From Cephalotus follicularis (lineage: Eukaryota > Streptophyta > Magnoliopsida > Oxalidales > Cephalotaceae): 64,000 bases of DNA. A program made the translations under genes and the position numbers. Below the pieces are notes generated by a model. The model saw only the letters and a program-made list of their open reading frames with translations. It searched no databases and was not told the DNA's origin. Shown here in pieces: positions 3,061 through 63,780 of this stretch. The first letter of the stretch is position 1. Each line of letters begins with the position of its first letter. The stretch is from positions 101,817-165,816 of the forward strand of contig BDDD01002386.1 in the NCBI GenBank assembly GCA_001972305.1. The letters are read 5' to 3'.

Positions 3061-3266
3061 CAGTCGGCTGTCTCTGTGGACAGTCGGCTGGAATGGATGA
3101 GTAGTCGACTGCCATATGAATGCAGTCGACTGCCTTAGGTTGAGTAGTCGACTGGATGTATGAACCAGTCGACTGCCTGCACTTTTATTTGAGTAGTCGA
3201 CTGGACATTATGAATAGTCAACTGTCTTGCTTCCCCAGTCGATTGGTGCCCTGTATTAGTCGACTG
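3061..3266. repeat. 21-bp-phased array of CAGTCGACTG palindromes (LTR A, 10 units)
   Basis: Ten copies of YAGTCGRCTG begin at 3061, 3081, 3102, 3123, 3145, 3166, 3194, 3215, 3236 and 3257. Steps are 20, 21, 21, 22, 21, 28, 21, 21 and 21 bp. The 11-bp spacers differ from one another, so this is not an ordinary tandem repeat: only the palindrome and its phase are kept. Confidence 0.95.
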
Positions 3267-3852
3267 TTTTGCCCAGAAATGTACTGTTTTCAACTGTTTT
3301 AATTCGTTTGATCCTCGAATCGATCCGAGTCTTTTCCAAACACTATTAAGAGTCTGTTTAATACTTCTGATGTATTTTAGACTCTTATACGTATGATTTT
3401 GAATGTCTTTTTAGATTGATTGTGATTCAAGTGAAGTTTGGTTTAAGTCATCTATTCGTAAGTATTTGTGAGCGCATAAGGTACGGATCTTCGTTTCTTG
3501 ATACCCTCCTATCAGTTTTACTGAAGTAAATAAAAAATAGTTTTACTTTATGAATAATGTACGGATTTTCTGTTCCTTGGCTATCTGATGTTTCGAACTG
3601 AAAATAGTATTGCAATGTTTCTTCGTTTATGAAATCGATGATGTTTTATGATTTTGATACGTTTCGAATTTAAAGTTGGTTCGACATTTTTAAATGATTC
3701 CGACTTTATCCATGCGATATGAAATGATACGATATGTTATGATACCGTTGTGAGCGGTTTTCGAATATGTAATGTGAAAACATATGTTATGTGATTTTAA
3801 ATTTATTTTGATAAATCAATAATTTTGAAATAAATACTGAGTATTGTACCCA

Positions 3853-4110
3853 CCTATGGGGCGTACCATAGGCACATCGTAGGCCTGGCACGGGGACGTG
3901 ACACTTCCGTAGCAGTGTGATTAGACTACGGCGTCTCTGAGTGTATGAACAAATCCCATGAGGTGGATTTGTGGATTTTCTATGTATGATAGAAGCGTAT
4001 GAATCGATTCTAGTTTATGTGATTTGAGGTATGATCAGATATGTGATCCGAGGGGTGATCGAACATGTGTATGTGAGAATTGACTGGTGTAGTGCCGTAC
4101 ACTTCAATTC
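3853..4110 (+). other. Conserved structured block of family-1 LTRs (three hairpins)
   Basis: Hairpin 1 (3853-3872) pairs CCTATGG with CCATAGG. Hairpin 2 (3907-3931) pairs CCGTAG with CTACGG. Hairpin 3 (4077-4110, 34 nt) pairs GAATTGA with TCAATTC and inside it GTGTA with TACAC. Hairpins 1 and 2 recur in M, N, Q and H with small changes. Hairpin 3 recurs in Q (43299-43332) and H (62633-62666), each exactly 34 nt. Its function is unknown; RNA packaging, dimerisation or translation signals are guesses. Confidence 0.7.
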
Positions 4111-4696
4111 TAGTGGGCATGTGGAATTAGCGTCTCCCTTGCCAAATTTATGATATGTGATATGTATACGGCTCAGTATGAACTATGATTTTTGATGTTT
4201 TAAAATGTTCCGTAATTGTTTCAAAAGATATGCAATTGTTATTTGAATATGATTAAATTGTTTTATCTGTTGAAGATTTATGTTACGTTATTATTGAAAT
4301 ATTAATGTTTTTATATTACCGTTTACTGTTTTATTTCCCTTATCCGTACTGAGGTTTGCTCAGCCGCGTTTTTGTTTCCATGCGGCAGGTTTTCAGGAGC
4401 AGCGGGGGAAAGTGTGATTGAGTGATGACCACCCTATGTGTTGGATTCTTAGGAGAGTGATCCTTATGTTATATTTAGTGGTCAGAAACATTGATTATTA
4501 TGTTTTTAAATTGGAACTGAATTATGTTTTGAGTTTTCCGCAACTTCTTAATATGTTAAATGGTTAAGCTTTAATGTTATGATATGACTGCCACGTTTTT
4601 GGCTGTTATTGACTAATAAAGTAAACGTATGATTTGATAAGTAATGTTATGTATGATATGACCCTGTGACGACTCCCGCCGTCCGGGGGTGTTACA

Positions 4697-6865
4697 CACA
4701 TCATATCATATCACATTGCATATCTTATCACATATGCCAAATACTAGAATCGATTCATACACCTCTATCATACATAGCAGATCCATAAATCTACCCCATG
4801 TGATTTATTCATAAAATACAGAGACGCCGTAGACTAATCACACCGCTACGGAAGTGTCATGTCCCCGTGCCAAGTCTACGATATGCCTATGGTACGCCTC
4901 ATAGGTGGGTACAAATACTCAGTATTTAATCATTTCTAAAATATTGATTTATCAAAATCAATTTAGAAACACATAAAATTTGCCTTTTCAAAACATATTC
5001 AAAAAGCATTATCAAACGATACATTTCATATTTAGAGTATCAACTCATTTATTTCTCACTATAAACGAGATGATCATAACATATAACATATCATAATGTA
5101 TCATGGCATAAGAATAAAGTCGAGAACATTCAATATCACAAAATGTCAAAACTGACTTTATTTCTGGAACATATCGAATTCGAATCATAGCGAAGTTCAT
5201 AAAACCAAAGAAACGTCACAAGGAAACGAATATCCATTCATAAATCAAAACTAAATTTTGTCTCAATAAAGTCGAAGCGAGTATCAAAGAGCAGAATATC
5301 CGTACCTTATGCGCTCACAAAAGTACTAACGAAAAGATTGTTAAGTTAAACTCCCTTTTGAAGCACAACAATCTAAAAGACACAACTATTCATATAAGGG
5401 ATATTAGAAACATAAAATAGATTCATTACAGTGTTTAGAATAGACCTAGATCGATTCGAAGAACTAACAAACCAAACAGTTGAAAATAGGAATTTTCTGG
5501 GCAAAACAGCCGACTGTTACAGAGCCCCAGTCGACTGAGGAAGCTTGGCAGCCGACTATCCAACAGGGCCAGTTGACTACTCAAAACAGACTGTAGCAGT
5601 TGACTGTGACAGAGGTCCAGCCAATTGTGCAAAACAAAGAAGTCGACTGTTTTCATAAGGCAGCCGACTACTCAACCAAACCAGCCGACTGTCCATAAGA
5701 ACAGCTGACTGTTTTGGACAACAAAACAGCATAACTTGACATTTTTCAATGCAGAAACTATCCAAACATGTATACCAGAATACCAAAAGCCTATAAACAC
5801 TTATATGTGACATTGCCTGTTGCTTAGACAGTTAAAAAACACAGAATTAACATATCTTGTGAGACCAGTGGCTATATTCAAAGGAAAAGAGAGGAAATCC
5901 TATACACATGCATACATCTATCAAACCAAATTTACTGTCCAAAGCTACATTCAGTTTCTAGGATCAGATTACAACATATACATATGCTAAAGGACTGATT
6001 AACAGGTCCATAAACCATGATAGAAAACAAAGGGACTGGAATCAAAACTCTAACAGCCTATATGCATATCAAACCGAATAACAATGTGGAACAAACCATC
6101 ACAACAAAGATTACTAACATGTAATGGTTTAACAGACACTGGAACAATATGAGAAACACCATAATTTATTGATCACCTGGCTGTACACAAGAACAATGGG
6201 AAGAAAAAGCAAAGCAATACACAACCTTAATGCCAGCCGAAAGAAACATAACCCAATAGAAAAACAAAGGATTGTGATAACATAACAAACCTGGCTTGAT
6301 GAACACGAATACACAAGAATGCAAAACGAATTCCTATATTGCAGAGTCGACAGTGGCTTACAATGTTAAGAGAGAATGTCATTACACGGTGAATAAATAA
6401 CAAACTTAAACAGAAAAGAGAGGGGATTTCGGCTAGGATATGGAAAGAAGAAACAGATTTGAGTTGGATAACGAAACAAAAGAGAGATATTCGGGATTGA
6501 GGGAGAGAAACGGGTTAGAAGATAAGGGAGAGGAGAGATACGGGGAAAATAAATAGAAAGGGAGGGAAGAAAGGAAATAAGATAAGTAAAATGAAATAAA
6601 AATAGAAAATAAAAGATTTCATGTAAATAAATTTTGAAAATTGTAAAATTGTAATTATGCAAGTTAAAAAAAATGACATAAGCATAAACCCATCTTTAAA
6701 GCATAAACATACCCACATACCCAAAATCCAGGCTGTATCAGCCAGCCCCAAACACATAGGCCCAAACACAGGGCAAACGGACTTCATAACAAGACAATTT
6801 AAAAAGCCCGAAAATAACCAGATTACAATTCGTAAAATATGCATACGAATAAGCAGGGTATTACA
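4697..6865 (-). repeat. Partial family-1 LTR in minus orientation (LTR M)
   Basis: This reads as the reverse complement of the A and Q LTRs. Its right end, GCAGGGTATTACA (to 6865), is the complement of the LTR start. Its left end is cut by insertion of element A; the missing LTR end should lie upstream of the window. The five bases after it, GACAC (6866-6870), are the expected TSD. Frames open here are non-coding LTR. Confidence 0.9.
5507..5711. repeat. 21-bp-phased palindrome array (LTR M, 10 units)
   Basis: Units of the CAGYCGACTG type begin at 5507, 5528, 5549, 5570, 5597, 5618, 5640, 5661, 5682 and 5702. Steps are 21, 21, 21, 27, 21, 22, 21, 21 and 20 bp. In LTR orientation the long step falls just before the last four units, as in A, N, Q and H. 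Confidence 0.93.
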
Positions 6866-8188
6866 GACACATAAGAGAGAAGCACCTGGCGTTAAAACGC
6901 CAGGCACTTCAAGCAAAAAAGGGAGAGACACGAAAGAGAGAGCGGGAGAGAGAACCAGAGCTGGAGAGAGAGGCGCCGGAGAAGATGACGACGCTGGCGA
7001 GCGAACGACGTAGGTCCTCCACTGCCAATGGTGAGCTCCTTCCTTCTCCTCTCTTTTCTTTTCTTTCCTCTGTCGCCCGAAGCCTTGCCATTGCCGTGCA
7101 TTCCACCACCGGTTAGCATCGCGGGAAGGTCCGGTCTTCACCAAGGAGGCCGGCTACACCTATTTTAGTGGCTGACTTGGCGCCATTCGGCCGAAAACGG
7201 CCGGATTCGAACTGACGAGTTGACTCAGTGAAGCTAACTCGCTGCCACCTTTAACCGCGCGTTTAGCGCTGAGTCTCAGCAATTCTCGGGCAGTGGTGTG
7301 TTGATATGATTATTGTGTGGCTGTTGAGGCGTTGTTCGGCCGAAAACGGCCGGGAATGGTTGACTGAGTTAACCCAGCAAGCTTGACTCGCTGCCTGCTG
7401 TGACCGCCGGTTCCTTGGTGAGTCTCGATGAGTTTAAGGCTGGAATATGTTAATCTAATGCTAGTGTGGTGTTTTTGGGTGGCGGCCGGAGTTGTTTAAC
7501 GTCCGGCGAGTCAACTCAGTGAGTTGACTCACTGCCGGCTGTGACTGCGCGATTTACGGTGAGTCACGGTTACCAATGTGTAGATCGTAACGAAATGTGT
7601 GATTGTTATTGCAGCGATGCTGAAAGAGAAATAGAGCTCTGTTAACACCAAATGGAGCTGTGATCATGATCGCGAGTGAAGCTTATAGGAGGAGGCGGCT
7701 AGTCGATTCCACTGCAAGTCGTCCCGACTCGCAAGCTCAACCGTTAACAAGTAGGTATACATATGCTCCAACGGTACATGCCCAGATGACTATGGGCTTG
7801 ATCCCCTTCGTATAGGCCGGTATGGGACGGTAGTATACGAATGGTAGATCATTAAAGTAGGGTTACACTGTTTTACTTGCATTCCTGCATTTTGAGTGGA
7901 TTCTGTTCATTGATGATTGTATGCTAAGTTGATTGTTATGGTTATGCATGATTACTAGCTACGTGGTTTAATGAACTGTGTACGAGTATAATGGACTAAA
8001 TGGAGAATTGAGAGAAGTTGAGCTTCTACTTTCTCTCAATTCAAGGGTCATGAAAATGGAAATGGTTTATGGGTTATGGATATTGTATGGATTGATCAAT
8101 TGTATTGCATGAGACTAAATGAGATAACCCATTCACGACCCTCATATATGTCATGAAGGTCATGAATGTTAGACCACATAATGTTTAT

Positions 8189-8290
8189 CCCACATCGTGG
8201 GAGGATCGATATGGACAATGTTACCCCACATCGTGGGAGGATCGATATGGATAGTGCTTGCCCCACATCGTGGGAAGACCGATATGGACG
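8189..8290 (+). repeat. 36-37-bp minisatellite with hairpin core, 3 copies (LTR E)
   Basis: CCCACATCGTGGG (stem CCCAC/GTGGG) occurs at 8189, 8225 and 8262, each followed by a GGATCGATATGGA-like tail. Open frames on both strands here are a by-product of the repeat. Confidence 0.88.
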
Positions 8291-8399
8291 GTATGGTATG
8301 GATATGGTATGCATGGACCTATGGTATGCATGGTGTGGTCAGTGTTATCTCGACCCTATTCGTCTATGACACAGAGAGTGCGTAGATAATGGAATGGAC

Positions 8400-9480
8400 C
8401 TTATGGATGGTTATGGAATGTATTGTTATCAAATCGTATAGTACCGCATCGTTATCATATCGTATAGTACCGCATCGTTATCATATCGTTATGGATCGTA
8501 TCGATATTGTATCATTATCAAATCGTATCGTATCGTTATCGTATCGCATCGTTATATATAGTATCGGTATCGTATCAGAATAGGACCTACGAGGGACTAG
8601 TATATCGGACCAGGACCTTCGAGGGATTGGGATGGTATCGTTATCGGACTAGGACCTACGAGGGACTAGTATATCGGACCAGGACCTTCGAGGGACTGGG
8701 ATTGTATCGTTATCGGCTAGGACCTACGAGGGACTAGTATATCGGAATAGTGATCGTATCGTTATCGAATCGTATCGTATCGTTATGGATCGTATCGTAT
8801 CGTCATCGTATCGTTATGATTCGTATCATATCGCTGGACTAGGTCCATTATGAACAAGTCCATATTGTAATAAGGGTTGGGACCATTGTGAACAAACCTT
8901 ATCATATCGCTATGGTTAATGCTACGGATGGCTATGGATATGGTTACGGAAAACTGTTACGGTAAACGGTTATGGACAATATTGAACCAAGACCTTTGGG
9001 AACTGGGTAATCGTATCGGTATCGATCCAGGACCTTCGGGAACTGGGTAATCGTATCGTTATCGTGCCAGGACCTTTGGGAACTGGGAATCATATCGAAT
9101 TGTTATCAAATCGTATCGTATCATTATCGTTATCGTATCGTTATAGATCGTATATATATCGTTATTGGACTAGGACCTTCGGGAATTAGTATATCAGACC
9201 AGTACCTTCGAGGAACTGGGAATCGTATCGAATTGTTATCGAATTGTATCGTATCGTTATCGAATCGTATTGTATTGTTATAGATTGTATAATATCGTTA
9301 TCGAATCGTCATGGATTGTAAATGGTTATGGAGAGTAAATGGATGTGAATTGTAAATGGATATGGACCGTAACGGTTATGGTTATTGAGGACAACGGTTA
9401 TGGCTATGGATGGATACGATATGGTTATGGACCGTATCGCTATGGATCATGATGGTACTGATTGTTATGGTATGGATATG
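8400..9480 (+). repeat. TATCG-rich cryptic simple repeat with longer units (LTR E)
   Basis: About 1.1 kb is dominated by TATCG and GTATCGTTATCG words. A 68-69-bp unit containing AGGACCTACGAGGGACT starts at 8582, 8651 and 8719. A shorter unit with AGGACCTTCGGGAACTGGG occurs three times near 8990-9090. Later parts degrade to TATGGATCG and GGTTATGG words. I see no coding potential. Confidence 0.85.
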
Positions 9481-10385
9481 ATATGGTTACGGTAGGACCA
9501 TGGTATGTATCCCTAGATGGTTGTTGTTGATCCCATTCTTATACGCCGGTATGGGACGGTTGTATACGAATGGTAGATCCTAGCGTATATGAATCTAGGG
9601 GAATGGTTGTAATGGGCTAGAACCTTTGGGGTCTGACATTGGCCTGTTAAAGAGTGATGATTGATTTGATCCCATTCCTTACACCGGTATGGGACGGTTG
9701 TATACGAATGGTAGATCACATGTTTTATTGGTCTCTAGGTTATGATGCACGACCTTTATATTATGAGCTACATTGCTATGAATTGGCATTCATACATCTC
9801 TTGCCATGCATACATCTCTCATATTGTACACATATCTGCTGCACTTCTATTTGTTCATTGCATATGTATATCCTACACAACCTTCTGGTTGCTGACCCAT
9901 TGCATTGTATTGTAATGTAATGGGTCAGGTTCAGGTCCAGGTGACGCGCAACAGTGACCAACCAGGTTAAATCGCATGGTAAGGATTTACATCTCCTCTG
10001 ACCTACTTTGACCTGCCGGCTAGTGGCAGTGCTTGATCTATATGAGTGTTGATGTAAAGGATATGGATGGGACCTACTACTGTGATTATTGTTGATTCCT
10101 CCTTCGGGAGTGTGGTTGTTGAGGGCTGAGCCCATATATATAAATTGAGTTTTTCTTTACAGGGGGTTTAGTCCGATAAACGAATACTTCATGCCGAAAT
10201 TTCAGGAAATTCCAAGAGTTAGAATATATTCATGATTGATTATTCTGCTTGCTTGACTTTGAATTAAGTTTTATAAATTTGAAATATAGCACTTTAGAGA
10301 ATATGAATACGAATGGATTGACTGAATGGAAGGCATCTCACGTGTCGGATCGTGGGGGTTCACTCTCGCGGTTCAGGGCGTGACA

Positions 10386-14297: not shown

Positions 14298-14302
14298 ATG
14301 AG

Positions 14303-15174
14303 TGTTGACTTTTAGTCTCAATCCTAAGTTTTAATGATTACAAATTTGCATTTAACTTTGTTACTTTCTGTGCAAGTAAAAAGATAAACAAAATTAAGAA
14401 GTGTAGAAACAGAGCAAAGCATCGACGGTCCCAATCAAAGCGTCAGCCCTTTATGCCAAAAAGTCGACGCCCAAGAAGCTTGTGTCTGCCGTTAAAACCA
14501 GTGAAGTGCAAAATCAGTTGAAGTACTCAAAGCGTCGACGCTCAGGATTAAAGCGTCAGCGCTTTATGGCGAAGAGTCAACACTGAGAACAAAGCGCCGG
14601 CAGACAAAACGAGAAAATTCAAATTTAACTCATAACGGTAACCTAAGCGCCGCGCTTTAGGCAACACTGTCGACGCTTTGTACGTCTGGTACAATATCAG
14701 AACTTGTTTTAAAGAGCCAACTTAGTAGCAACAACTTCCAAGACTTCTCCAACGGCTCTATTTCTTCACCAATGGCTAGAATCAAAAGAATGCTATAAAT
14801 ACAAGCCAAGAAACAAGCTCAAAGTGATTTGGAACAACTTTTGATCATCCAATCTAAAAGAGAGAATTTGAACATCCAAACTCAAACTTGCACATCCATA
14901 AAAGAACATCAAGCTTTTGTTTACACTTTCATATCTAACCTTCAAGAGGTTATTGTAAATACAAACCAATCCTTTTATCTTTCATTGTAAAAGAGGGGAG
15001 TGAACCCTTGTAAGGTGTTTGATTGATTTGCACCCGGAACCCAAAATCAAGTGTAAGGTGGTTTGCTTTGATTTGCACCCGGAAGCCGAAAATCAAAGGT
15101 TGCTAGTGGTCTCTAGTGGAATCTCAAGGGGTTCTTGAGAAAGTGGACGTAGGCACGGATTTGCCGAACCACTA
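14303..15174 (+). repeat. 5' LTR of element C, interrupted
   Basis: It starts TGTTGACTTTTAG and matches the 3' LTR at 18144 closely up to GCCGAACCACTA, where LTR N is inserted. The palindrome array spans about 14420-14680. A TATA box CTATAAATA is at 14793-14801. Confidence 0.93.
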
Positions 15175-17195
15175 TGTAATACCCTGTTCGTTCGTAAATG
15201 TATTTTTACGGATTTGTAAATGTTTTTACGGATTTTATATGTGTTTTCGGACTTTTAATTTCGTTTAAATTTTAAAGTCCGGTTGCCCTATGATCGGGTT
15301 TATGTGAATTGTGCGGTATGATACCGGTCCGATATTTGGGTATGTTATGCTATGTTGGGTTTTATAAATTCTTATTTTAATCCAAAACTTATTTTATTAA
15401 AAACAAATTATTATTCTTTGATTTTAATATTCCTAAATTCCTTTTTCATTATTAATTCTTTTATTATTAATTCTTTTTATTTCCTTTTCCTATTTTATCA
15501 TTTTCCACCCTTTTCTCCTACTACCTTCCACCTTCTTCTTCCTTTCCAGCAGATTTCTCCTTCCCACCATCTGAATTCACATGTTAAGCCTCTCCTTTTC
15601 CATTTCAAAATCCAGAAAAGTTCCCCATTTCTTCCACTTTTGTCAAATCTTGTCTCCTCCTTTCTCCCTTATTGAGTATCTTGCCATTTTAAATGTTGCC
15701 TTCATCATTCTTGCTAGCTACTGCAGATTCCATCTTGTTAGTGTGTAACAAACTGCTGTGTAATTCATTCATCAAATTCGTGGAGGTAGATTCGATCCTT
15801 AGTTGTTCTTCAAGTTGAATTCATTGGGTTTGCTAAACTTTTCTTTATTTTGGCTTCTTTTGGTCCCTGTTTTTGTCACAGCAGATTGTGTGTTGGTGTT
15901 TGTGTTATTCCTACTGTTTTCTGGGTTTCTTAACATCACTACAGGTCAGTGAATTCATCTCCTTCAATTATGGTTTTGTTTCAATGGCTTACTATGAGTT
16001 TTTGTGCTCTTGGTATCTTGGAGTCTTTGATTCTTCCCTAAACATGTTGTCAATGTATTAGCGATGTTATCTGCACGTTTTATGCACCTATATATGTCAC
16101 AAACTAAGTTTATAACATTTGTACTTAATAAAACACAGAATCTGGACATGTTCATGCAATGTCTCCTTACTTCCTTTTTCAAGTTAAATCATTGAAAGGT
16201 CGTTTCTTTGTCAAATTTGTGTTTGTAAGTCACCTACAAGTCATATATAATCATATGTTTATGTCCATATGTCTTTGGTTTAATGTAGAAATCATTTGAA
16301 CCATTTTCAGTAGCAAATCATCGGATTTCCAACTCTTCTGTCGCCCAAAACAGCCGACTGTCTGAGTGGACAGTCGACTGGAATGATTGGGTAGTCGACT
16401 AGATTGAAGAACACAGTCGACTACCTGCATTTTTGGTTAAGTAGTCGACTGTTCATATGGTCCAGTCGACTGCCAAGCCAAACCAGTCGACTGGACCCCT
16501 GTTCTAGTCGACTGTTATGCCCTGGAATGTGCTGTTTTCAACCGTTTTGATTCGTTTGACCCCCGAATCGATCCGAATCTTTTCCAAACACTTTTATGAG
16601 TCTGTTTAATGCTTCTAATGGGTTTTAAACTCTTATACATATGATTTTGAATGTCTTTATAGATTGTTGAATTTCAAGTGGATTCCGTTTAAAATTGTCT
16701 ATTCGTAAGTACTTTGCAAGCGCATAAGGTACGGATTTTCTGTTCCTTGGCTATCTGACATTCAAACTGAAACTGTTTTGATAAACATCTTCATTTATGA
16801 AGTAAATGATGTTTCATGATTTTGATACGTTTTGAATTTAAAGTTGGTTTGACATTTTAATTGATTCCAACTTTATCTATACAATATGTTATGGTACGAT
16901 ATGTTAAGATACGATACGATACGTTATGATATGTTATAATACTTTTGTGATCAGTTTTTGAATATGTTGTGTGAAAACATATATATGTGATTTAAGTTGA
17001 TTTTGATAAATCAATTATTTTTAAATTAAATACTGAGTATTGTACCCACCTATGGGGCGTATCCATAGGCACGTCGTGGGCCTAGCACTGGGACGTGACA
17101 CTTCCGTAGCGGTGTGATTAGACTACGGCGTCTCTGAGTGTATGAACGAATCCCATGAGGTGGATTTGTGGATCCGCTATGTGATAGAGGCGTAT
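15175..17195 (+). repeat. Family-1 gypsy LTR N, truncated at its 3' end
   Basis: It starts TGTAATACCCTGTTCG inside the C 5' LTR and follows A and Q through TATA (15361-15369), palindrome array and hairpin block. It stops abruptly within TATGAAATTGA and continues as copia gag. Both partners have ATGAAATTGA-like sequence at the joint, so a microhomology-mediated deletion removed the LTR end together with the rest of the C 5' LTR, PBS and 5' gag. Confidence 0.9.
16351..16514. repeat. 21-bp-phased palindrome array (LTR N, 8 units)
   Basis: Units begin at 16351, 16371, 16392, 16414, 16442, 16463, 16484 and 16505. Steps are 20, 21, 22, 28, 21, 21 and 21 bp. The long step again precedes the last four units; there are two units fewer than in A. 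Confidence 0.95.
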
Positions 17196-17597
17196 GAAAT
17201 TGAGATTCTAAATCTTTCTTCAAATTTATCAATTGATTCTTTGGAAGAAAATGAAAAGCTAAAAATTGAAATTGATGCTTTGAAGAAATCTTTTTCCATT
17301 TTTTCTAATAGTAGCACTAAATTGGATAATCTCTTAGGTCTTCAAAGGTGTGTGTTTGACAAAGCCGGTCCCGGCTACGAAGAAATGAAAAATGTCAAGC
17401 ATTTTAAGAATTTCTTTGTTAAGAAAAATGAGCCTCAAATTTGTTGCAATTATTGTGGTAGATTAGGACATATTTCTACCTCTTGCTTTTTTAGAAATAA
17501 TCTTTGCTATGGTAAAACTAGAAAGATTTGGATTCCAAAAGGAACTTTTGTGACTAACTTGCAAGGACCCAAGTTCAAATGGGTACCAAAAGCTTAA
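17196..17597 (+). pseudogene. Copia gag C-terminal fragment of element C
   Basis: Only the distal part of a Sirevirus-type Gag is left. It has a coiled-coil stretch (SLEENEKLKIEIDALKKSF), the family block LLGLQRCVFDKAG..GYEEM, one CCHC zinc knuckle (CNYCGRLGHISTSC) and the ending GPKFKWVPKA, then TAA. It parallels the Gag ends of B and J. The frame is open back into LTR N, but its first 20 codons there are LTR sequence, not gag. No pol follows. Confidence 0.9.
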
Positions 17598-18143: not shown

Positions 18144-19159
18144 TATTGACTTTTAGTCTCAATCCTAAGTTTTAATGATTACAAATTTGCATTTAACTTT
18201 GTTACTTTCTGTGCAAGTAAAAAGATAAACAAAATTAAGAAGTGCAGAAACAGAGCAAAGCGCCGACGGTCCCAATCAAAGCGTCAGCGCTTTATGCCAA
18301 AAATTCGACACCCAAGAAGCTTGTGTCTGCCGTTAAAACCAGTGAAGTGCAAAATCAGTTGAACTACTCAAAGCGTCGATGCTCAGGATTAAAGCGTCAG
18401 CGCTTTATGGCGAAGAGTCGACACTGAGAACAAAGCGCAGGCAGACAAAACGAGAAAATTCAAATTTAACTCATAACGGTAACCTAAGCGCCGACGCTGT
18501 AGGCAACACCGTCGACGCTTTGTACGTCTGGTACAATATCAGAACTTGTTTTAAAGAGCCAACTTAGTAGCAACAACCTCCAAGACTTCTCCAATGGCTC
18601 TATTTCTTCACCAACGGCTAGAATCAAAAGAATGCTATAAATACAAGCCAAGAAACAAGCTCAAAGTGATTTGGAACAACTTTTGATCATCCAATCTAAA
18701 AGAGAGACTTTGAACATCCAAGCTCAAACTTGCACATCCATAAAAGAACATCAAGCTTTGGTTTACATTTTCATATCTAACCTTCAAGAGGTTATTGTAA
18801 ACACAAACCAATCCTTTTATCTTTCATTGTAAAAGAGGGGAGTGAACCCTTGTAAGGTGTTTGATTGATTTGCAGCCAGAACCCAAAATCAAGTGTAAGA
18901 TGGTTTGCTTTGATTTGCACCCGGAAGCCGAAAATCAAAGGTTTCTAGTGGTCTCTAGTGGAATCTCAAGGGGTTCTTGAGAAAGTGGACGTAGGCACGG
19001 ATTTGCCGAACCACTATAAATCGTTTGCACACTCTCTATCCCTTATCTCTTTACTTACAATTGTATTATTTGTTCTTGTGTGCTTGTTTAGTTTCATAAT
19101 TTAATTTTTTAATTCCGCAAACAAATTTAGTAATTAAAGGTTGCCATACATCACCAACA
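18144..19159 (+). repeat. 3' LTR of element C
   Basis: This LTR is 1016 bp, begins TATTGAC (G to A change from TGTTGAC) and ends CACCAACA. The array of GCGTCGACGC-type units has core positions 18263, 18284, 18305, then 18376, 18397, 18418, 18438, then 18491 and 18512, with 20-21-bp steps inside each cluster. TATA box CTATAAATA is at 18635-18643, about 120 bp after the array. Confidence 0.93.
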
Positions 19160-19164
19160 ATGAG

Positions 19165-28341: not shown

Positions 28342-28460
28342 GGGTTCTGACCGTTTTTATGGCTTTACCACCATATTACGGGTTCTGACCATTTTTACGG
28401 CTTTATCACTATACTTACGGGCTCTGACCGTTTTTACGGCTTAGCCATGATGTGATCAGC
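28342..28460 (+). repeat. 38-bp minisatellite, 3 copies (D 5' LTR)
   Basis: Units with GGGTTCTGACC and TTTTTACGGCTTTACCACC start at 28342, 28380 and 28419. The 3' LTR has five copies. Confidence 0.93.
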
Positions 28461-40211: not shown

Positions 40212-40253
40212 AGGTAGATTCATAATTCTTAATTGTTAGAATCCTAAAGATCC

Positions 40254-44695: not shown

Positions 44696-45222
44696 ATATC
44701 CTTGTTTTGTAGGTGTGCTTGAAGGAAATGTTACAATGAAAACTTCAAGAAAAAAATGATCACTTTAAGCACATGAGTAGTAAGTGTTTTGATATTGTAA
44801 ATATCGTGATTTCTGTATGATTGTGTGCTTTTACGAACTTTAAAAGTCAATTATGTGTTTTGATATGTATGAAATGCTTTTCAAACTAATGTCATGCATC
44901 CAACATTGAGTTTTAACTCAAATACATCAAGATGCTCAAATATCTAAGTCACTATTAGTTAATAGTAGCTTATTATGGATTTTCGGATCAAAGGGAAGCT
45001 CAAAATCTACATATTCAAGTTCTGCAGAATCCAGCTGACTGGTGTCCTTATCCAGTTGACTGTCTCAACATCCAGCCTACTGGCCAAAAATGCCCAGTCG
45101 ATTGTCGATGCGCGAATCAGGTTTTAAAACCCTATTTTTTTCCTCTCCCCCAAATCAAAACTCCTCTAAACACTGTCAAAACTCGATTCTCACCTCTCCC
45201 AAGTCGTTCCCACTGATTTCTA
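44696..45222 (+). other. Gag to env-like junction of element B, pol absent
   Basis: Where about 3 kb of pol would be expected there are only some 530 non-coding bases. They open with TTTTGTAGGTGTGCTTGAAGG, shared with J and C. Two or three CAGCTGACTG-like palindrome units lie at about 45030-45105. No protease, integrase or RT motif is present. Confidence 0.85.
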
Positions 45223-47455: not shown

Positions 47456-47457
47456 AG

Positions 47458-48348
47458 GAGGAAGAAGAAGAGGAAGAAAGCGATGAGGTAACCTATGATG
47501 AACTTGTCTTAGTCGTAGAGAAATATAGTTCTATGATTGCATCTTTAAAGAAAAAGGTCAAGACTTTAGTAAATGAAAACGAGGAACTTAAATCAATTAA
47601 TTTGGCTAAAGAAGATAACTCAAACGAAATTGAAGTAGATCTTCTAGAGAATGAAGTAGCATATTTAGAGAAGGAAAATAGAATACTTAAGGAAGAAATA
47701 GACACATTAAAGAAAACTTTCTCAAAGTTTTCTAATAGTAGTGAAAAGCTTGAAAACTTTCTCGGTATGCAAATATGTGTTTTTTATAAGGCCGGACTAG
47801 GATATGAGGAGATGAACAATGTTAAGCTTTATCAAAACTTCTTTGAGGGGAAAGAGAGGATAGAGAAAGAAAAGGTTGAAAAAGCTCACATTAAGAAAAA
47901 AAGTGTAAAGATTTCATGTGACTATTGTGGTAAAAATGGACATACATCTTTTACATGCTTTCATAAGAAAAATGCCATGTTTAAGAAAAATATAAATAAC
48001 TCTTGTAATTTTTGTGACAAACATGGACATACATCTTCATCATGCTATCATAAGAAAAATGCCATATATAAGAAAAAGATAAATTCTTTGTGTGTTCATT
48101 GTGGTAAATATGGTCATGCATCTTCATCTTGTTTTTATAAAAGAAATATTACGTATAAAAGAAGAATAATTGTATCTTGCAACAATTGTGGTAAGAATGA
48201 CCATACTTATACCTCTTGTTTTTACAAAGAAAATATATTAAATGATTCAAATTTCTCTAGAGTAAAGAAAAGTTGGGTTCCCAAAGGAACCATCTCGACT
48301 AACCCCAAAGGACCCAAGGTTTGTTGGGTACCTCAAACAAATATTTGA
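47458..48348 (+). pseudogene. Gag of element J, N-terminal part missing, four zinc knuckles
   Basis: The frame is open from the LTR edge (EEEEEEESDEVTYDELV) and the first ATG is 47533. A coiled coil spans residues 1-75 of that ORF, followed by FLGMQICVFYKAGLGYEEM. Then come four tandem CX2CX4HX4C knuckles, CDYCGKNGHTSFTC, CNFCDKHGHTSSSC, CVHCGKYGHASSSC and CNNCGKNDHTYTSC, about 78-87 bp apart (47928-48220). It ends WVPQTNI, TGA at 48346. B and C have one knuckle here. The N-terminal Gag domain and PBS are deleted: LTR sequence joins directly to mid-gag. Zinc knuckles bind element RNA in packaging; what four would do is unknown. Confidence 0.92.
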
Positions 48349-51439: not shown

Positions 51440-51805
51440 TTAATATGGTTGTATACTTGTGTGATCTTTGCTTGAATTGCTTGTATATTGTGTGTTGCAT
51501 CATTTGCATTCATTCATACGTGTTTTTGAAAAAAATCGGCAGAAAACAGAGCAAAGCGCCGACGCCTGGAATTAAAGCTTCAGCGCTTTACACAAAATTA
51601 GGGTTCGAGTTAGGAAAATTGAGCAAAGCGCCGACGCTTTACCCGAGTCCGTCGATGCTTTAGTCGTATTTTAAAACAGAAAGCGCCGTCTATCAGCCCA
51701 TTTTAACCCTAAAATCTCAAATCCCTAACTCAAAAAACTGTCTCTTGCGATTTCGAACCTCCTTTCTGCCGAAAATAGTTATTAAACCTCAACCAATCAC
51801 CAAAG
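51440..51805 (+). other. Pol to env-like spacer of element J
   Basis: 366 bp without a supported gene. It contains two pairs of the GCGCCGACGC-type palindrome, with cores at 51559 and 51580, and at 51631 and 51652; both pairs are exactly 21 bp apart. This shows the same phased motif outside the LTR. Confidence 0.8.
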
Positions 51806-53038
51806 ATGCCTAATACCAAGAACATTGAAGCTGGGGAAGGGTCTAGCAAGAGGACAAAATCGGTTGGATGGAAGAACAAAGGTGCAAGCACACTACCAGC
51901 CACACCAGAGGCGACCCCTTCACTCCCAAGGTATCCCGAAGCCTACTTCAATCGCAAAATACTAGTAGGCAAAGTGTTAGACTTTGATTTTTGCAACAAT
52001 GAGGGTTTCCCCATTGTTGAGTGGTTAAGTGCACAAGGGTTAGAACCTCTATTTTCAATTAATTTGCCTAGTTATCCGAAGCTAATCAAGGAATTTTATG
52101 TTCATGTACCTCTAGGGTAGATTTAACCACAAAAGTTAAGGATTCGGAGATAGCATTTGATGTACCAACTTTAGCAAATATGCTAGGAATCCCACGTGAA
52201 GGTCCAAGAGGATGGAATCAAAGGAATTGGCTTGTAAATGAAAACTTTCATAAGGTAGATTGTGTCAAATTGCTATTCGGAGAACATGCTAACTTTATGC
52301 AAAGAATGTACACTAGGAACCTTAGCTTACACCATAGGTTCCTACATCGTGCTGTCGCCACACACATTTTACCTAAGGCTGGAGGGTTTGATGAGGTAAC
52401 ACACATGGAGGCCTACACTATGTATCACCTCATCACTGGTAAAAAGATCAATGTGCCCTACCTAATAATCAACCATAAGCACGCAATCCATGATCAAAAG
52501 AATGCTAGACTAGGCTACAGTAACATCATCACCAAAATCCTTCTATTTTTTGAAATTGACCTAACTGGAGAGATACATCACCCACTCCAAAGTGTAGACA
52601 AGCTAGGAAAGGGAACCCTCGGAAGAATGGGAACATAAGAGACTTGGGACATGGATCCCTAGGGAGGAGGACTCGAATAGAGTCATTAAAGAAGAAGGAG
52701 AAGCGGAAATAGGTGATGAAGCTCAAGCTGAAGCAAGAGATCCCCAAGAGGAGCCCACACCAAATATCAACCTGCTAGGCACTAAACTCGAAGAAATCTT
52801 GGAGGCAATTAAAGGCCTACAGCAAAATGTCCAAGAAATGAAGGTGAATGTTGACACAATTAAAAGAAGGCAAAAGAGGATGGCAAAGAGATTTGCGAAA
52901 ACAGGAATAATTGGCAACGAAGGCCTTATCTCCTTTTCAAGCCAAGATGACGATGACATTCAGCGAGATGATGTAGGGACAGATGACTTGGAGGGTGATA
53001 TGGTTGGAGATAATGAAGACACTCCGATGGACGATTGA
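51806..53038 (+). pseudogene. Env-like ORF of element J
   Basis: The ATG at 51806 gives MPNTKNIEAGEGSSKRTKS, a hydrophilic basic N-terminus. SYPKLIKEFYVHV follows, then a frameshift near 52115, and DSEIAFDVPTLANMLGIP. The middle part (GGFDEVTHMEAYTMYHLITG, 52390-52440) belongs to the conserved domain of Sirevirus env-like proteins. A second shift near 52625 leads to an acidic stretch and a coiled coil (EAIKGLQQNVQEMKVNVDTI, 52800-52860), a basic KRRQKRMAKRF, and an acidic end before TGA 53036-53038. I see no signal peptide or obvious transmembrane helix, so a true envelope role is doubtful. Confidence 0.82.
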
Positions 53039-53536: not shown

Positions 53537-54669
53537 TGTTGACATTTATGTCTTAATCCTAGTTTTGATGATAAAATATTTGTATTTAACAAAGTTTCTT
53601 TATGTGCAAGAAAAAGATAGAATGTGCAAAACAACAAGAAAATTGTAGAAACAACTTAAAGCGTCGACGCTCAGGAAGTAAGCGTCAGCGCTTTGTGCAA
53701 CCGTCGAAGCAAGGAACAAAGCGTCAACCGTTGAAGCGTTTCAAGAAAAGGAGTAAGTGTCCAAACTGTCAACGCTTAAATGAAAGTGCCAGCGCTTTAA
53801 ATCAAAGCGTCTGCGCTTTGACACCATTTGACGTGGTTAAAACCAGAGATTTCTTGGGGCCAATCAATTTGACAAAAGCGGGATGCTCAACACTAAGCGT
53901 CAGCGCTTTGAGGAAACGGTCGACTCCATAATCCAGAACACCAGCGCTTTGACCAGACAATTCAAATTTGAACTACGCAACGGTCATATAAGCGGCAACG
54001 CTTTGAGGCAAACTGTCGATGCTTTCCACAGCTGGAAAAATTTCTGACAGAGTTTTAATGCGCCGTTTTTGAAGCAACAAATTTCAAGACACATCTAACG
54101 GATTTATGAAGAAAGAAACGGCTATAAAAAAGTAGTTTTGAAGAGAGAACAAAAAAAAATAATACAAGTGAACATACATACAAAGATCAATTAAGCAAAA
54201 ACACCACAAGCATTCAAAATCATCAAGTCTCTTTCAAAAGCTCTTGTCTTGTGTCTTAGCTTATATTTGTTCCCACTAAGATTGAGAGATATTATCTTGT
54301 AAAATCCAACCTTTGAGAGGTTAAGAACAAACATTATTCTTTTTACACTTTGATTGTAATAGGGGAGTCAACCCTAAGAGAGATTGGGGAGTGAACCCAA
54401 AGAGGATTGTAAGTGATTGAGGTCAATCACAAAGGTGTACCGAATAGCACCCAAAATTTTATTCGGAGACTAGTGGAAACTCGAGGAGGCCCTTTGGAAA
54501 AGTAGACGTAGGCAAGAGTTAAGCCGAACCACTCTAAAACCATGTTTGCAAATTCTCAAACTCTCTCTCTTTAAATTAGTTTACTTATTTGCTTTTGATT
54601 GCAAATATATATTGTTCATTGATTTTAACTTAGATTTGTAAAAAGTTAATTAAATTTTTAGAAACTACA
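53537..54669 (+). repeat. 3' LTR of element J
   Basis: The 1133-bp LTR is nearly identical by eye to the 5' LTR, with the same GTCGAC array (53661-54020) and TATA box CTATAAAAA at 54122-54130. It ends GAAACTACA and is followed by element H sequence. Confidence 0.94.
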
Positions 54670-54714: not shown

Positions 54715-57329
54715 CTCCTTGTAATAACCGCAATTTCAATTCGTGTATATTGTACTCTTGATGAATAAAATATGCACTTACATTGATTTTTAATGTCCAT
54801 TTGTTATATGAATTGTGGTTGTGAATTTAATTGCGGGAATAAACTTAAATAACCCAAAATCAGCCACCTACAGACGACTGTCCCAGGGCAACAGTCGACT
54901 GCCTAGTTCATGGAAGAACAGCCGACTGTCGCAGGGCAACAGTCGACTGGTTGGGTTAAGTAAGGACAATTGACTGTCACAGGAAAACAGCCGACTGGTC
55001 TGGCACAGACAAGTGTCTGTGCATGGCGTGTGAAACAGGCCAGAAGCGTGGCATGCAATGGACAGGTGTCGTACGCATGCCACCAGATGTAGCAACATGC
55101 AAGGGTGATGCCTTGCATGCTCTCTATCCATCCCTGCACACCTGCAAGACCTGCAACCTGCAATCACAGCAGAAAAGTGAGAAAGAAATTTAAGGAAGAG
55201 ATGCATGTGAGAGAGAGAAGAGAAAAGAGGGAAGGCTAAGTTAATGGAACCTAACGAATTCTAAGGCTTTAAAACCTTTATATCAGCTGTGAAGAGCTGA
55301 TTTGTGTGTTAGAAAACACTAAGGAGAGGAAATCGAAGGAGAGAATTGTTGGAGCTTGCATGTTGATAGTTGGAGTTGCAAAAGGAGAGTGAAGCTTGAA
55401 TCTTCCTGGTAAGTCTCTAATTCGAGCTCACTGGATGTTGTTATAGCTAATAGTAGATATAACCCCCTGATTGCAGTTGTATACCTACTGTTAATATGGT
55501 TCCATAGTTATTGTAAGGAGTTGGAGAATTGGTTAAAAGTGGGATTAGAAGCTTAAGAAAGAATGATAAGGTACTGATTGGATTATAATTGTTAGCATGG
55601 TTAGATAACTAGTTAAACTTGCTGGTTTTGGTATCTAAACCCACAAACGTACAATTGTATAGAATAACCTATTGGAATTGGGAAAGTTAGTGTGGAGTTG
55701 AGACTTGGGACTCAAAGAGAGAAATCAACTCAATTTGATTTCGGGATAGCGATTGAGGTAGGGGTTTTGACATGCTTTAGAAGATATTATATGTATATCA
55801 TGCCTGGATGTTTTCTGTATGATTGCATGTTATGGATTGATTGAAATTGGATTGTGAGCATGCATGCCCTGTTATTTTAAACTGCTGCCTGGCTTTTCTG
55901 GGCAAAAATAGTCGACTGTTTAACCCCAACAGTCAACTACTCAATGTAAACAGTCGACTGTTAAGGACAAACAGTCGACTACCTAATTAAAACAACCGGC
56001 TATTCTTATGAACAACCGACTGTTAAGTGACAAAATGCTAGGATTAGCTATTGTTAGGCTTATAATTGTGCGTAATTACCCTGGCCTCCGCATGGGATGA
56101 TTGTAACAGTCAATCCTGGCCTTGTGTAGTTACATTACTGAAGTAAACAACTTATGCACTCATTGTGAGAAGTTGTGCAAGAATGACTAGGGTATGCTAA
56201 CATCTTGTTGAACCCTTGAATTGTCTGTTCCGCTGCTGTTATTGATGCGGTTATACATTCTGTATAGCTGATAAGTGTTCACAAATACTATTGTTACCCT
56301 TAAAAATCAATGATTGAAGCAACTAGTGCTATAAGCACAAATTATGGATTTTCTTCTTATTGTTTCAAAAAGAAAACTCATTGTCAAATGAACCACTGGT
56401 TTTCCTCCCTGAGAGGCACTATTACTGTACTGAATATTGTTTCCTCCAATGAGAGGTACGGTCACTGAACTGAAAAAATTGCTTCTAAAGAAAACAACTT
56501 TTATATTGCATACTTGATATATGTAATATTGCTATTGAATTGATTGAATTGTTTGTCTATGTTATTGCCGTTAGTCGAAGTGATAGGAGACATCAGTGGC
56601 TACGGGGTGGTCCTAGGTGCCAGGAGTTGGCTAGAGTTTCCACCACATTTATCCGCAATGCAGATCCTGATTGTTACCTGCCTGCTAAATGCCGGCAGAA
56701 CTGACCTCACCCTTCATCTTCGGAGTGTAGGATGATAGTTAGGTGATGCGCAGTTGGTGCTAGGAGTTAGCGACATGTGACACTCAAACCACTGTATTGA
56801 TTGATTTTACCCTTGTGCGGTATTCCTGAATTGTATTGTCTATGGCCACTTGGCATGATTGCGTATATATATTGGAATACTCATATATATGTTTTTTCAG
56901 ATAACTGACATGCATGTTACATATATATATATATATATATATTCTTTTTCATGCATTATTTTCCTACTTAGCCAAGTGAGGACAACGGCTAACCCCTTAC
57001 AATTTCAGATTAAGTGAAGGCGTTCGGGAAGTGCTGCTAAAGCGTTATTGGAGAGCTTCTATTTTGTTAAGGTTGTTATTCTTTATGTTTTGTATTGAAA
57101 TGAACGCTCACACTCCGTTGTTGTATCTTTACATTTCCAATATGTAAAAGAATAATTTTGTTAGTATTGTATAAGCACGTAGTATGGGCCGCGTGCGGAT
57201 GAATTTATAATCCGGCTATGTATGCTTCCGCTATTCTTTTGAATTTGGTTTATGTCGAATGCTGGATTATTATTTATATCTGATATCACCATATATGCAT
57301 GTCATGTGGAAACGGGGTGTGACACTCCT
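54715..57329 (+). mobile_element. Solo LTR K (family 3) with TSD CTCCT
   Basis: The 2605-bp LTR (54720-57324) starts TGTAATAACCGC and ends GGGGTGTGACA. CTCCT occurs at 54715-54719 and 57325-57329. It interrupts the last codons of H pol. It shares its end and several blocks with LTR G. TATA-like CTTTATATC is near 55275. Internal frames are non-coding. An AT run lies at about 56920-56941. Confidence 0.96.
54871..56022. repeat. Two phased palindrome arrays in LTR K
   Basis: Array 1 units start at 54871, 54892, 54919, 54940, 54967 and 54988 (steps 21, 27, 21, 27, 21). Array 2 units start at 55909, 55930, 55951, 55972, 55993 and 56013 (steps 21, 21, 21, 21, 20). The CAGTCGACTG core is the same as in family 1. 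Confidence 0.93.
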
Positions 57330-60589: not shown

Positions 60590-61829
60590 CTCGCTACAAC
60601 TGAGTGGGTCGATCCAGTATCATACAAAACATATGCCCTCGGTTACCAACAGAAACAAAACCTGAAACCGTCCCTGGTACATTAGCAGCCTGTTGTGTCG
60701 TAATGGCAAAGACTCGACCTCCCACATTGCGCTGTCCATATTCTGCATTGTTTCCCCTCCTATCCTTCGCTCGAGGATCAACACAATCTTTCATGAAGTG
60801 CCCTTTCTGTCCACATACAAAACAGGCCCCGATGGCCTTATAGCAAACTCCTACTGGATGTTGTCTACCACAAGTATCACACTTGGTAATCTGAACATCC
60901 CCAGCTTCCTATGTCTGCTTCTGATCATTACCCGACTGTCGCTGTCCCCGGTTATCATTCCTCCTTCCTCGTTTGCCATTTCTGTTCTTGCCATGTTGTC
61001 CAGAACCTTGCCCCTGAGAATCTCCTATGTTTCTCTTCTTATCATTTTCCTGCCGAGCTACCTAGAAATCTAGCCTCTCCAGTTCTATATTCTTTGCTGC
61101 ATTTGCCACTTTGGATACATCAGCAAACCTGGTATTAATCAGCTTACCACGGAGCTGATAGTGCAGTTTCCACTTGAACTTCTCAGCCTGTTCCAGTTCT
61201 ATCCCCGCTGCAGACCCAGCAAAACCAGCAAGCCTAGTGAAACGGGTCAGAAGCTCCGTGACCGATTCTCCATCCTTCTGTCTTTAATTTATGAACTCCC
61301 TGGCATAAGCCTCCTTATCAGCAGCGGGAAAATACTACTGAGAGAAGACTTCACAAAACTCCGACCAAGTCAAAGCATCAACATAGTTACCACCCTTAGC
61401 CAAACCCAGAGTCTTCCACCACTTTTGAGCATCACCCTCAAGCATGTAAGCAGCTAACCTAACTTTCTGCTTGTCACCACAACCAAGCACATCAAAGATC
61501 GTGTCCTTATGCGCAATCCAATGCTCCGCTTCCACAAGAACCATGGCTGAGCTAAAAGACTACGGCCTCTGTTTCTGGAACCGCTCAAGCCATATATAAA
61601 CTGGTGTATCGGTTCTGTCCCCAGTTTCCCTTCTCAACTGAACATCAGCTGGAGCATTCTCCTCAGCAACTGGCTCCCTACAGCCTTGTTCCTGATTCTG
61701 CTGACTCATCACACAACGTACCTCCTAAGCAACTGCCTGACGTACCAACTCTTCCATAGAAGGCTCATTTCTGACTTTTCGAGCCTCAACTGTTGCAGTT
61801 CTCTGAGCAGCATTCCTTGTACATACCAT
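60590..61829 (-). pseudogene. Gypsy gag and protease start of element H
   Basis: The ATG (61829 on the minus strand) gives MVCTRNAAQRTATVEARK. The Gag core is at 61335-61544 (FDVLGCGDKQKVRLAAYMLE, then AQKWWK), followed by FPAADKEAYAREF and RFTRLAGFAGSAAG. Two zinc-knuckle-like motifs follow near 60790-60880: CDTCGRQHPVGVC and CFVCGQKGHFMKDC. The protease active site DTGS lies near 60612-60621 in another frame, so a one-base shift separates it from gag. Several TAG stops replace CAG or TGG codons. Layout and motifs fit a chromovirus of Tekay/Del type. Confidence 0.9.
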
Positions 61830-61998
61830 CTATGAAAAGACACTCAAAACATGAAACATCACAAAGAACAAAAACCAAAACAGAAAACATATCATAAGAT
61901 CGTAACGAAGCAGCCTAACCCAGTGTCTACCCAATCTCACAGGTCAAACCTAGTTAGGTCTTCTAAGGAAACAAAACCTATTCTCTGATACAATAATT
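61830..61998 (-). promoter_or_regulatory. Leader and primer-binding site of element H
   Basis: Just inside the LTR the minus strand reads ATTGTATCAGAGAATAGG (61977-61994), a slightly changed form of the initiator-tRNA-Met site TGGTATCAGAG. The remaining leader is short, as in other chromoviruses. Confidence 0.8.
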
Positions 61999-63780
61999 TG
62001 TAACACCCCCTAATAGCGGGAGTCATCATAGGTCATAATACAGATCATAACTTAACAAAACATAACTTAACTTAATATAGGCATAACTTTATTGGCCAAA
62101 ATGTGGCGGTCAAACATAATATACTGAAAACTGATCATAAACTGAAAAACTTAACATATTTAGAAACTTAAAACATATGTTCCAAAGGTTAATTATTTAA
62201 AAAAAAAAAACATAGCTCAGAAGTATCTTATTGTTCATGACCCCTCTAACTGAAAGCACATAGGGATCACACTGCTAGGGATCCATGACATAAAGGTGGC
62301 CAACTCTCATTCACACATTCGACCGCTGCTCCTGATAACCTGCCGCATCGAAAGAAAAACGCGGCTGAGCAAACCTTTGTACAGATAAAAAATATAAAAC
62401 AGTAAACTGTAATTTAAAAGCAGTAAGATTTCAACAAAACTCGTAACAAAAATCGTATGCAGTAAAACATTTGAATGTTCATTTCCGAACTTCATAAAAC
62501 CTAATTCATATCTTTCGAAACATATGCGGAACGTTTCAAAAATATAATTTCATAATCCATACTGAGTCACATAACATATCACATATCAGAAACATAAATG
62601 GCAAGGGAGGCGCTACTTCCACACGCCCATTAGAATTGAGGTGTACGACACTACACAAGTCAATTCTCATTACATATCATATCACACATTGCATATCTTT
62701 CACATATGCCATAAACTAGAATCGATTCATACGCCTCTATCATACATAGCGGATCCATAAATCCACATCATGGGATTTATTCATACCATACAGAGACGCC
62801 GTAGACTAATCACACCACTACGGAAGTGTCATGTCCCCGTGCCAGGCCTACGACATGCCTATGGTATGCCCCATAGGTGGGTACAAATACTCAGTATTTA
62901 ATCATTCTCAAAACATTGATTTATCAAAATCAATTTAGAACACATAAAATATGCTTTTTCAAAACATATTCGAGAATCGTTATCAAACGATATCATTTAC
63001 ATAACATACATTTCATAACATATCGTAACATACGTATAAAGTTAAGAATATTAAATTCATAAAATGTCAAACCGACTTTATTTTCCAGAATATATCAATT
63101 TCACAACCAAGTTCTTAAAACGAAGGAACATAGCATAATACAAAACTAATTTCCCTTCGATAAAATCAAAGAGAGTATCAAAGAGCCGAATATCCGTACC
63201 TTATGCGCTTATAGAGAAGATCTACGAAAAGATTGTTAACTCAAACTCCCTTTTGAAGCACAACAATCTAAAAGAGACAAAACTATGCATATAAGGGTTT
63301 GAGAAACATTAGAGACATAAAACAGATTCATTATAGTGTTTAGAATAGACCCAGATCGATTCAAAGAACAAATGGATCAAACCAATTAAAAACAAGAATT
63401 TTCTGGGCAAAACAGCCAACCGTTACAAAGCTCCAGTCGACTGAGGAAGCTTGGCAGCCGACTATACAACAGGGCCAGTCGACTACACAAACTGGACTGC
63501 AAGCAATTGACTGTGACAAGGGTCCAGTCGACTACTTAACACAAAACAGTCGATTAAATTCATAAAATAGCCGACTGCTCAACCAAACAAGTCGACTGAT
63601 CATAAGAATAACCGACTGTTCTGGTCAACAAAACAGCAGAAACTTAGCCTTTTCAATGCAAAAACTTGTCTAAACATGTATAACTCGATACCAGAGACCT
63701 ATGAACATATACATGAGACTTTATATGATGTTTAGACAGTGTAAAACAAATAATTGACATGAAGAAGTATATAAACAGTG
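61999..63780 (-). repeat. 5' LTR of element H (partial)
   Basis: TGTAACACCCCC is the complement of the family-1 LTR end. It is colinear with M and with the reverse of A and Q through hairpin 3 (62633-62666), hairpins 2 and 1 (about 62795-62880) and the palindrome array. Near 63780 the match in this orientation ends. Confidence 0.9.
63413..63618. repeat. 21-bp-phased palindrome array (LTR H, 10 units)
   Basis: Units begin at 63413, 63434, 63455, 63476, 63504, 63525, 63547, 63568, 63589 and 63609. Steps are 21, 21, 21, 28, 21, 22, 21, 21 and 20 bp, almost the same as in M. Confidence 0.94.

Follow-up and report, generated by a model that had tools for sequence, protein, structure and literature searches.

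Arrays of a GTCGAC-type box at steps of about 21 bp in gypsy and copia long terminal repeats of Cephalotus follicularis

We analysed a stretch of 64,000 nucleotides of the Cephalotus follicularis genome (contig BDDD01002386.1, positions 101,817 to 165,816), here called the window. Long terminal repeats (LTRs) of retrotransposons in the window carry arrays of a 10-bp box, YAGYCGRCTR, at steps of about 21 bp. The arrays are not confined to one gypsy family: they are present in both copia and gypsy LTRs, the box occurs in high copy number through the genome, and the boxes and their CpG are conserved above the spacers and flanks. The best explanation, to which we give a probability of about one half, is that they are protein-binding, enhancer-type arrays that would drive transcription from the LTRs of both superfamilies.

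Nine box arrays in the window

Boxes with at most one mismatch to CAGTCGACTG were found 46 times in the window, against a mean of 1.04 and a maximum of 4 in 100 shuffles. All 47 perfect matches to YAGYCGRCTR lay inside nine arrays and none outside. A chance origin of the boxes was ruled out by these shuffles, by the clustering into arrays and by a reversed-motif control in the genome.

A sequence-only reading of this DNA had described five arrays in LTR copies of one gypsy family, with 10, 10, 8, 12 and 10 boxes, and had placed 40 of their 45 steps at 20-22 bp and the other five at 27-28 bp. Our recount returned the same numbers (arrays A, H, N, M and Q in window order, with 10, 10, 8, 12 and 10 boxes). 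Array A (3061-3266, plus strand) is in a complete 3′ LTR (1918-4696) at offset 1144-1349 of 2779. Array H (5507-5711, minus strand) is in an LTR truncated at its 3′ side, running from 6865 down to about 4697, and array N (16351-16514, plus strand) in another 3′-truncated LTR (15175-17198). Array M (42259-42507, plus strand) is in a solo LTR (41098-43974) with the target-site duplication AAAGA, and includes a 42-bp tandem pair detected by Tandem Repeats Finder (TRF). Array Q (63413-63618, minus strand) is in the 5′ LTR, ending at 61999, of a minus-strand gypsy element. The LTRs of A, H, N and M begin with TGTAATACCC, and those of A, M and Q finish with GGTGTTACA.

We assigned A to a gypsy 3′ LTR because RNaseH, integrase and SH3_Tf2-1 domains and a polypurine stretch precede it. 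The Q element has a zinc knuckle, a reverse transcriptase and an integrase at 60908-57418 on the minus strand, and the elements of both A and Q have gypsy-type pol in Pfam (RT_RNaseH, Integrase_H2C2, SH3_Tf2-1). Among the best 120 of 8000 relatives of the A integrase, the named ones were mostly from Asteraceae, Tanacetum foremost, with identity of up to 79%, and many carried a chromodomain (PF00385). The lineage is presumably Tekay/Del.

The five arrays are real, but four further ones had been missed. The first, C39 (39251-39583, plus strand, 12 boxes), is in an LTR with inferred bounds of about 39088-40198; a copia gag at 40248-40883 after this LTR identifies the host as a copia element. The second, S45 (45032-45104), at a spot unassigned to any element, consists of four degenerate boxes with steps of 21, 20 and 22 bp. 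The other two are in a 2.6-kb solo LTR, LTR T (57324-54720, minus strand), with the target-site duplication AGGAG. T55 (55909-56022, minus strand, 6 boxes, steps of 20-21 bp) is its first array, and T54 (54871-54997, minus strand, 6 boxes, steps of 21 and 27 bp) its second, at offset about 2330-2450 of 2605. They are about 0.9 kb apart, and paired arrays at a like distance were seen in L020, L021, L023 and L026. The copia and T arrays, together with the random genome sample described below, rule out an artefact of a single family.

Abundance and step lengths in the genome

The assembly (1,577,397,061 bases) contains 197,377 sites of CAGTCGACTG, against 939 of its reversed control, and 177,392 sites of CAGCCGACTG, a variant box, on the two strands (88,572 + 88,820; controls 708 and 622). 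The two together amount to an exact site every 4.2 kb or so of the genome.

A random sample of 18 stretches (167,099 bases, 9,606 of them N) contained 16 arrays of at least three boxes in six stretches, and CAGTCGACTG was its commonest perfect palindromic 10-mer, with 30 copies. BLAST placed twelve of the 16 arrays inside matches to the A/M gypsy family or LTR T, and one just past the end of a match to T. The array in L016 matched LTR T under a looser search. Two arrays in L028 (351-500 and 1323-1488) could not be firmly matched by BLAST to any LTR of the window and perhaps represent a further family. Twelve stretches of contig 1 chosen for their boxes were divided among the C39 copia LTR (2), the A/M family (5) and LTR T (5). 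Two of the contig 1 stretches, L031 and L032, carry copia-type 18-box arrays in sub-blocks, with the same list of steps except that the first two are swapped. No match was found in the viral contigs searched; the prokaryote genomes searched gave four loci, taken as unrelated from the titles of their records.

The window, the 18 random stretches and the contig 1 stretches picked for boxes together gave a pooled set of 39 arrays with 257 boxes; since a few families account for many of these arrays, they are not independent draws. The sequence-only reading had regarded broad step lengths as the mark of an ordinary satellite. The pooled steps instead had a sharp mode at 21 bp, with 178 of 218 at 20-22 bp and 23 at 27-29 bp. 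For the 163 listed sites of contig 1, in lists without the reverse-strand CAGTCGGCTG sites, 71 of the 103 steps of at most 70 bp were 20-22 bp.

Sequence of the box

The commonest box in the pooled set was CAGTCGACTG (83 of 257). Positions 4 and 7 vary, the centre being TCGA in 139 boxes, CCGA in 57, TCGG in 22 and CCGG in 6. Perfect palindromes (90 of 257) were as frequent as independent halves predict (95.9 ± 5.2), so that nothing couples the two halves. In C39, all 12 boxes had C at position 4 and none was CAGTCGACTG; the share of CAGCCGACTG was 4 of 12 there and 10 of 18 and 8 of 18 in two other copia arrays. The earlier proposal that the palindrome is kept therefore has to be relaxed, because a strict palindrome is not needed.

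The box holds one CpG and two CHG sites. The core RCCGAC, presumably the one bound by DREB/CBF factors, is contained in many boxes and occurs 54 times in the window, 25 of them inside arrays (2,079 array bases). DREB/CBF factors would be candidates for binding the box, though only a lead, since the core common to the related boxes described below is GTCGAC.

Conservation of boxes and spacers

Boxes were called on one copy and identity was measured between the other copies. Identity in the first array of LTR T (six copies) was 0.878 for boxes, 0.661 for spacers and 0.743/0.734 for the flanks; the second array (five copies) gave 0.900, 0.632 and 0.673/0.767, and the gypsy A/M family (eight copies) 0.844, 0.589 and 0.635/0.754. 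Pairwise identity among four copia copies was 0.864 for boxes, 0.603 for spacers and 0.703 for flanks.

CpG in the boxes was kept in 120 of 145, 60 of 72 and 296 of 359 cases (first T array, second T array and gypsy family), compared with 22 of 79, 40 of 130 and 116 of 273 for other CpG. For the five gypsy LTRs of the window, CpG was kept in 120 of 149 cases in boxes, 70 of 198 upstream and 304 of 583 downstream. Methylated CpG normally decays fastest.

Spacing and phase

The five gypsy arrays align as homologues, with one 27/28-bp step per copy at a matching place; their 45 steps are thus one inherited pattern and not independent observations. More generally, step lengths are passed on within families. 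Units were gained or lost between copies, with extra units in M and missing ones in N.

For the 26 arrays with at least five boxes, mean phase coherence peaked at 0.80 at 10.3 bp and was 0.64 at 10.5 bp; the maximum under the null averaged 0.45 and reached 0.52 at most. Within arrays, 411 of 820 box pairs were no more than 1.5 bp from whole turns of 10.5 bp, against an expected fraction of 0.29. The claim that every site is on one face of the helix is borne out loosely, with the 27-28 bp steps off-phase. This arrangement would fit a dimeric protein that binds cooperatively.

Gaps shorter than 18 bp, counted per 100 aligned bases, were compared between arrays and flanks. The values were 0.77 and 2.09 for T55, 0.33 and 1.16 for T54, 0.75 and 1.32 for the gypsy family, and 1.24 and 1.20 for copia.

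Position in the LTR and related boxes

Arrays A, M and C39 (the last at about 164-496 of 1111) are in the upper half of their LTRs, and the array of the gypsy family sits just before a better-conserved region. By eye, TTTATAAG was found about 45 bp past the last box of C39.

Other LTRs of the window carry related boxes with the GTCGAC core. Outside the nine arrays, GTCGAC was the commonest CG-containing 6-bp palindrome, with 35 copies against 6.75 in whole-window shuffles. A different box, AAGCGTCGACGCTT, matched at 10 or more of its 14 letters 73 times in the window against 12.5 in shuffles; individual boxes were called at 9 or more of 14 letters. Two copia-type LTR pairs (46324/53537 and 14303/18145) had 7-13 such boxes per LTR, many of them at steps of 18-21 bp, before a downstream CTATAAA.

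In the first pair, the 5′ LTR (46324-47456) has 13 boxes at 46446-46811 on the plus strand, with 9 of 12 steps at 18-21 bp, and the 3′ LTR starting at 53537 has 12 boxes at 53659-54024 on the plus strand. The same element has four more boxes of this type at 51554-51660 (plus strand; steps of 21, 51 and 21 bp), between pol (RVT_2) and an open reading frame (ORF) in the env position (52072-52638, plus strand). This ORF starts about 400 bp past the four-box cluster and matched PF20167 (putative plant transposon protein; E 3.7e-15). A copia gag at 47440-48348 (plus strand) has tandem 87-bp repeats encoding CCHC-like motifs; its match to bZIP_1, at 26.8 bits, is just below the cut-off of 27.6 and perhaps reflects a coiled coil. 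In the second pair, the LTR at 14303-15174 has eight boxes at 14417-14678 on the plus strand, with steps of 20-21 and 71-73 bp, and its partner starting at 18145 has seven at 18258-18520.

The long LTR at 25980-29483 carries GTCGAC-core boxes such as AACCGTCGACGCTT at 27368-27644 (plus strand), and its partner starting at 32961 carries them at 34348-34623. Counting both LTRs of the pair, the steps between boxes vary irregularly within 28-81 bp, so that the 21-bp step is not universal. A 38-bp tandem repeat in the two partner LTRs has 2.7 copies at 28339-28442 and 4.7 copies at 35317-35497, which implies a change in copy number between the two LTRs of one element. Elsewhere in the window, 8180-9489 is filled with dense mixed tandem repeats, with ATCGT-like units and periods of 11, 21, 26, 36, 40, 63 and 69 bp.

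Comparison with known systems

The sequence-only reading had found no described element with this layout, which overlooks the palindromic repeated-motif boxes in Sirevirus LTRs, upstream of TATA (PMC2829016). In the available part of that article, these boxes resemble ours in their number (at least eight copies), in flanking sequence that has diverged and in extra boxes upstream of an env gene. The box there is a short palindrome, a form that 90 of our 257 boxes have in full, and it sits in the LTR's upper half, ahead of the promoter region. The motifs listed there include CGGTCGACCG (Vitis) and ACAATCGATTGT (Tnd-1), each one symmetric transition pair away from (A)CAGTCGACTG(T). The number of boxes here is 8-12 in the gypsy copies, 12 and 18 in copia and 12 in LTR T over its two arrays. 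Arrays A, M and C39 have the upper-half position, unlike those of LTR T.

There are also differences. The available part of PMC2829016 calls the motif Sirevirus-specific and absent from classic retrotransposons; here the boxes are in Ty3/gypsy LTRs besides copia, and the gypsy-type pol of the A and Q elements sets them outside the Ty1/copia Sireviruses. The CGG-CCG signature given there is absent here (TCGA in 139 and CCGG in 6 of 257 boxes), as it is from Tnd-1. The five gypsy arrays are not CpG islands: in 200-bp windows, the observed/expected ratio of CpG was 0.36-0.96 and the G+C fraction 0.32-0.48. We found no regular step described for the Sirevirus motif in that part of the article. Relative to it, what would be new is that gypsy elements use the boxes, that both superfamilies of a single genome share them, and that they come at a 21-bp step and in such copy number; no published account of these was found in the literature searched, most subscription papers lying outside the search.

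Two other systems are similar in part. Rider and ONSEN have stress-response elements in the upstream region of the LTR, that is, sites for host factors; the part of the source available (PMC6762207) gives one or few sites per motif and mentions no 21-bp array. Del LTRs have a variable CpG-rich 5′ part in the available text of PMC4029996, which reports those of eudicots without CpG islands and does not mention palindromes. They belong to the same broad gypsy lineage as the A family, if the lineage name that we assume is right.

Interpretation

Under the enhancer-array explanation, a protein that binds DNA sequence-specifically, most likely of host origin, would dock on many GTCGAC-type boxes (YAGYCGRCTR) about two helical turns apart, and the bound protein would raise transcription of the element. 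The arrays would be placed mostly in the part taken as U3. They would lengthen and shorten as units of 21 or 42 bp are duplicated, with the box kept while the spacer drifts. The binding, dimerisation, cooperativity, activation and U3 position are inferences, and several lines of evidence speak for the explanation as a whole. Boxes are 84-90% identical where spacers are 59-66% and flanks 64-77%, and box CpG is kept in spite of the usual decay of methylated CpG. Gypsy LTRs, copia LTRs and LTR T all carry one box, not just in this window but also at other places of the genome. Arrays A, M and C39 are in the upper half of the LTR, and related boxes in two copia-type LTRs precede CTATAAA. The Sirevirus boxes have a like layout upstream of TATA, as far as the available part of PMC2829016 describes it.

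Several observations weigh against this explanation. The arrays of LTR T, one at the middle and one near the 3′ end, are in unusual places for U3. The gypsy arrays are not closely followed by a TATA consensus; all that follows is a conserved CTTATAYR some 115 bp downstream. In the closest trio of copies, M, H and Q, boxes (0.79-0.86) did not differ from spacers (0.75-0.83); the palindrome thus outranks the spacers in three LTR families but not within this trio. Kinship among copies, such as that of two of the five T54 copies (97% alike), means that the compared cells are not independent. Spacers resemble each other within four of the nine arrays, as detailed below. Selection on the spacing was not shown: per spacer base, with all small gaps taken to fall in spacers, the deficit of gaps vanishes in two of the four sets, where gaps are no rarer than in flanks. 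The statement that phase is kept thus does not extend to a selected phase. The binding protein, the transcript and its start site are putative.

Alternatively, the arrays could be a plain minisatellite of the LTR: slippage and element copying would have spread a 21-bp tandem unit of which the box is just the least-diverged part. The unit gains and losses noted for M and N agree with this, as do TRF periods of 20, 21, 42 and 48 bp in the arrays. Within M, H, T54 and T55, spacers resemble one another more than shuffled ones do. Spacers are not random words either: 31 of 178 contain CAGGG, where 2.0 would be expected. Across families, copia spacers matched gypsy and T spacers with a mean best match of 7.33 (6.68 when shuffled) and four matches of at least nine letters (0.36 when shuffled); none of 200 shuffles reached either value. 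This likeness implies that the arrays of the two superfamilies have ancestry in common, exchange or a second constraint. Inverted spacer matches were above shuffles for M-N, N-C39, M-T55, H-T55 and C39-T55, in spacers that are short and A/T-rich.

Against a minisatellite, spacers within the five other arrays, A (p = 0.057), N, Q, C39 and S45, were at shuffle level (0.05) although the boxes there are alike, so that copying of whole units does not readily explain the identity of the boxes in these five. CpG survives in boxes at two to three times the rate of other CpG, and other copia-type LTRs have a different box with the same core and mostly the same step. The sequence-only reading had taken the spacers as not conserved; this is right for neighbouring spacers in A, N, Q, C39 and S45, and not for those in M, H, T54 and T55, for spacers aligned between the three closest copies (75-83%) or for the words common between families. 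Spacers as conserved as boxes, which it took as the sign of a satellite, were seen only in M, H and Q among themselves, the general values being 59-66% and 84-90%. We regard the minisatellite as unlikely.

In another explanation, which we consider quite unlikely, a protein encoded by a mobile element would bind the boxes and lift silencing, as VANC does for VANDAL elements, which are not LTR elements. VANC targets are short motifs amplified as fast-diverging tandem repeats in non-coding regions of transposable elements (PMC5735166, PMC10398659, both as partly available), and the dynamics here are similar, with tandem amplification in non-coding regions and quick turnover of arrays. The CpG and two CHG sites of the box would suit such a role, and a U3 position is not required, which suits LTR T. 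However, the available text of PMC5735166 does not describe the VANC motif as palindromic and has it rarely in other transposable elements, and to account for boxes in both copia and gypsy, the factor would have to act in trans on elements that are unrelated. The Pfam scan of ORF pieces from the gypsy elements recognised no additional DNA-binding gene, and the PF20167 ORF in the env position belongs to a copia element with a different box.

An RNA-level element, with box pairs folding into hairpins for packaging or dimerisation or attracting small-RNA silencing, is also quite unlikely: array A (z = -7.99) and a related-box copia array (z = -3.66) fold better than shuffles, and palindrome clusters of maize Sireviruses have an excess of small RNA (as cited in the available part of PMC10760457), but C39, the last of the three arrays folded, does no better than shuffles (z = -0.04) and the box halves vary independently. 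These two results rule out a strict hairpin or compensatory model as the common denominator; the common point is a DNA box, not a fold.

A bolder reading is that many LTR families from the two superfamilies in this genome use a single DNA-binding protein, through a shared enhancer code that was either passed between copia and gypsy elements in the form of box arrays or arrived at by convergence; about 375,000 exact sites might then together act as a large sink for the protein. We offer this only tentatively. Palindromic box arrays have been presented as a hallmark of one copia genus, going by the available part of PMC2829016, and here one box serves gypsy and copia LTRs. Whether rival element families converge on, or exchange, the binding sites of one factor can now be tested, and the 10-bp probe is a ready handle for finding that factor. 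The number of sites also raises the question of how one factor would cope with hundreds of thousands of them.

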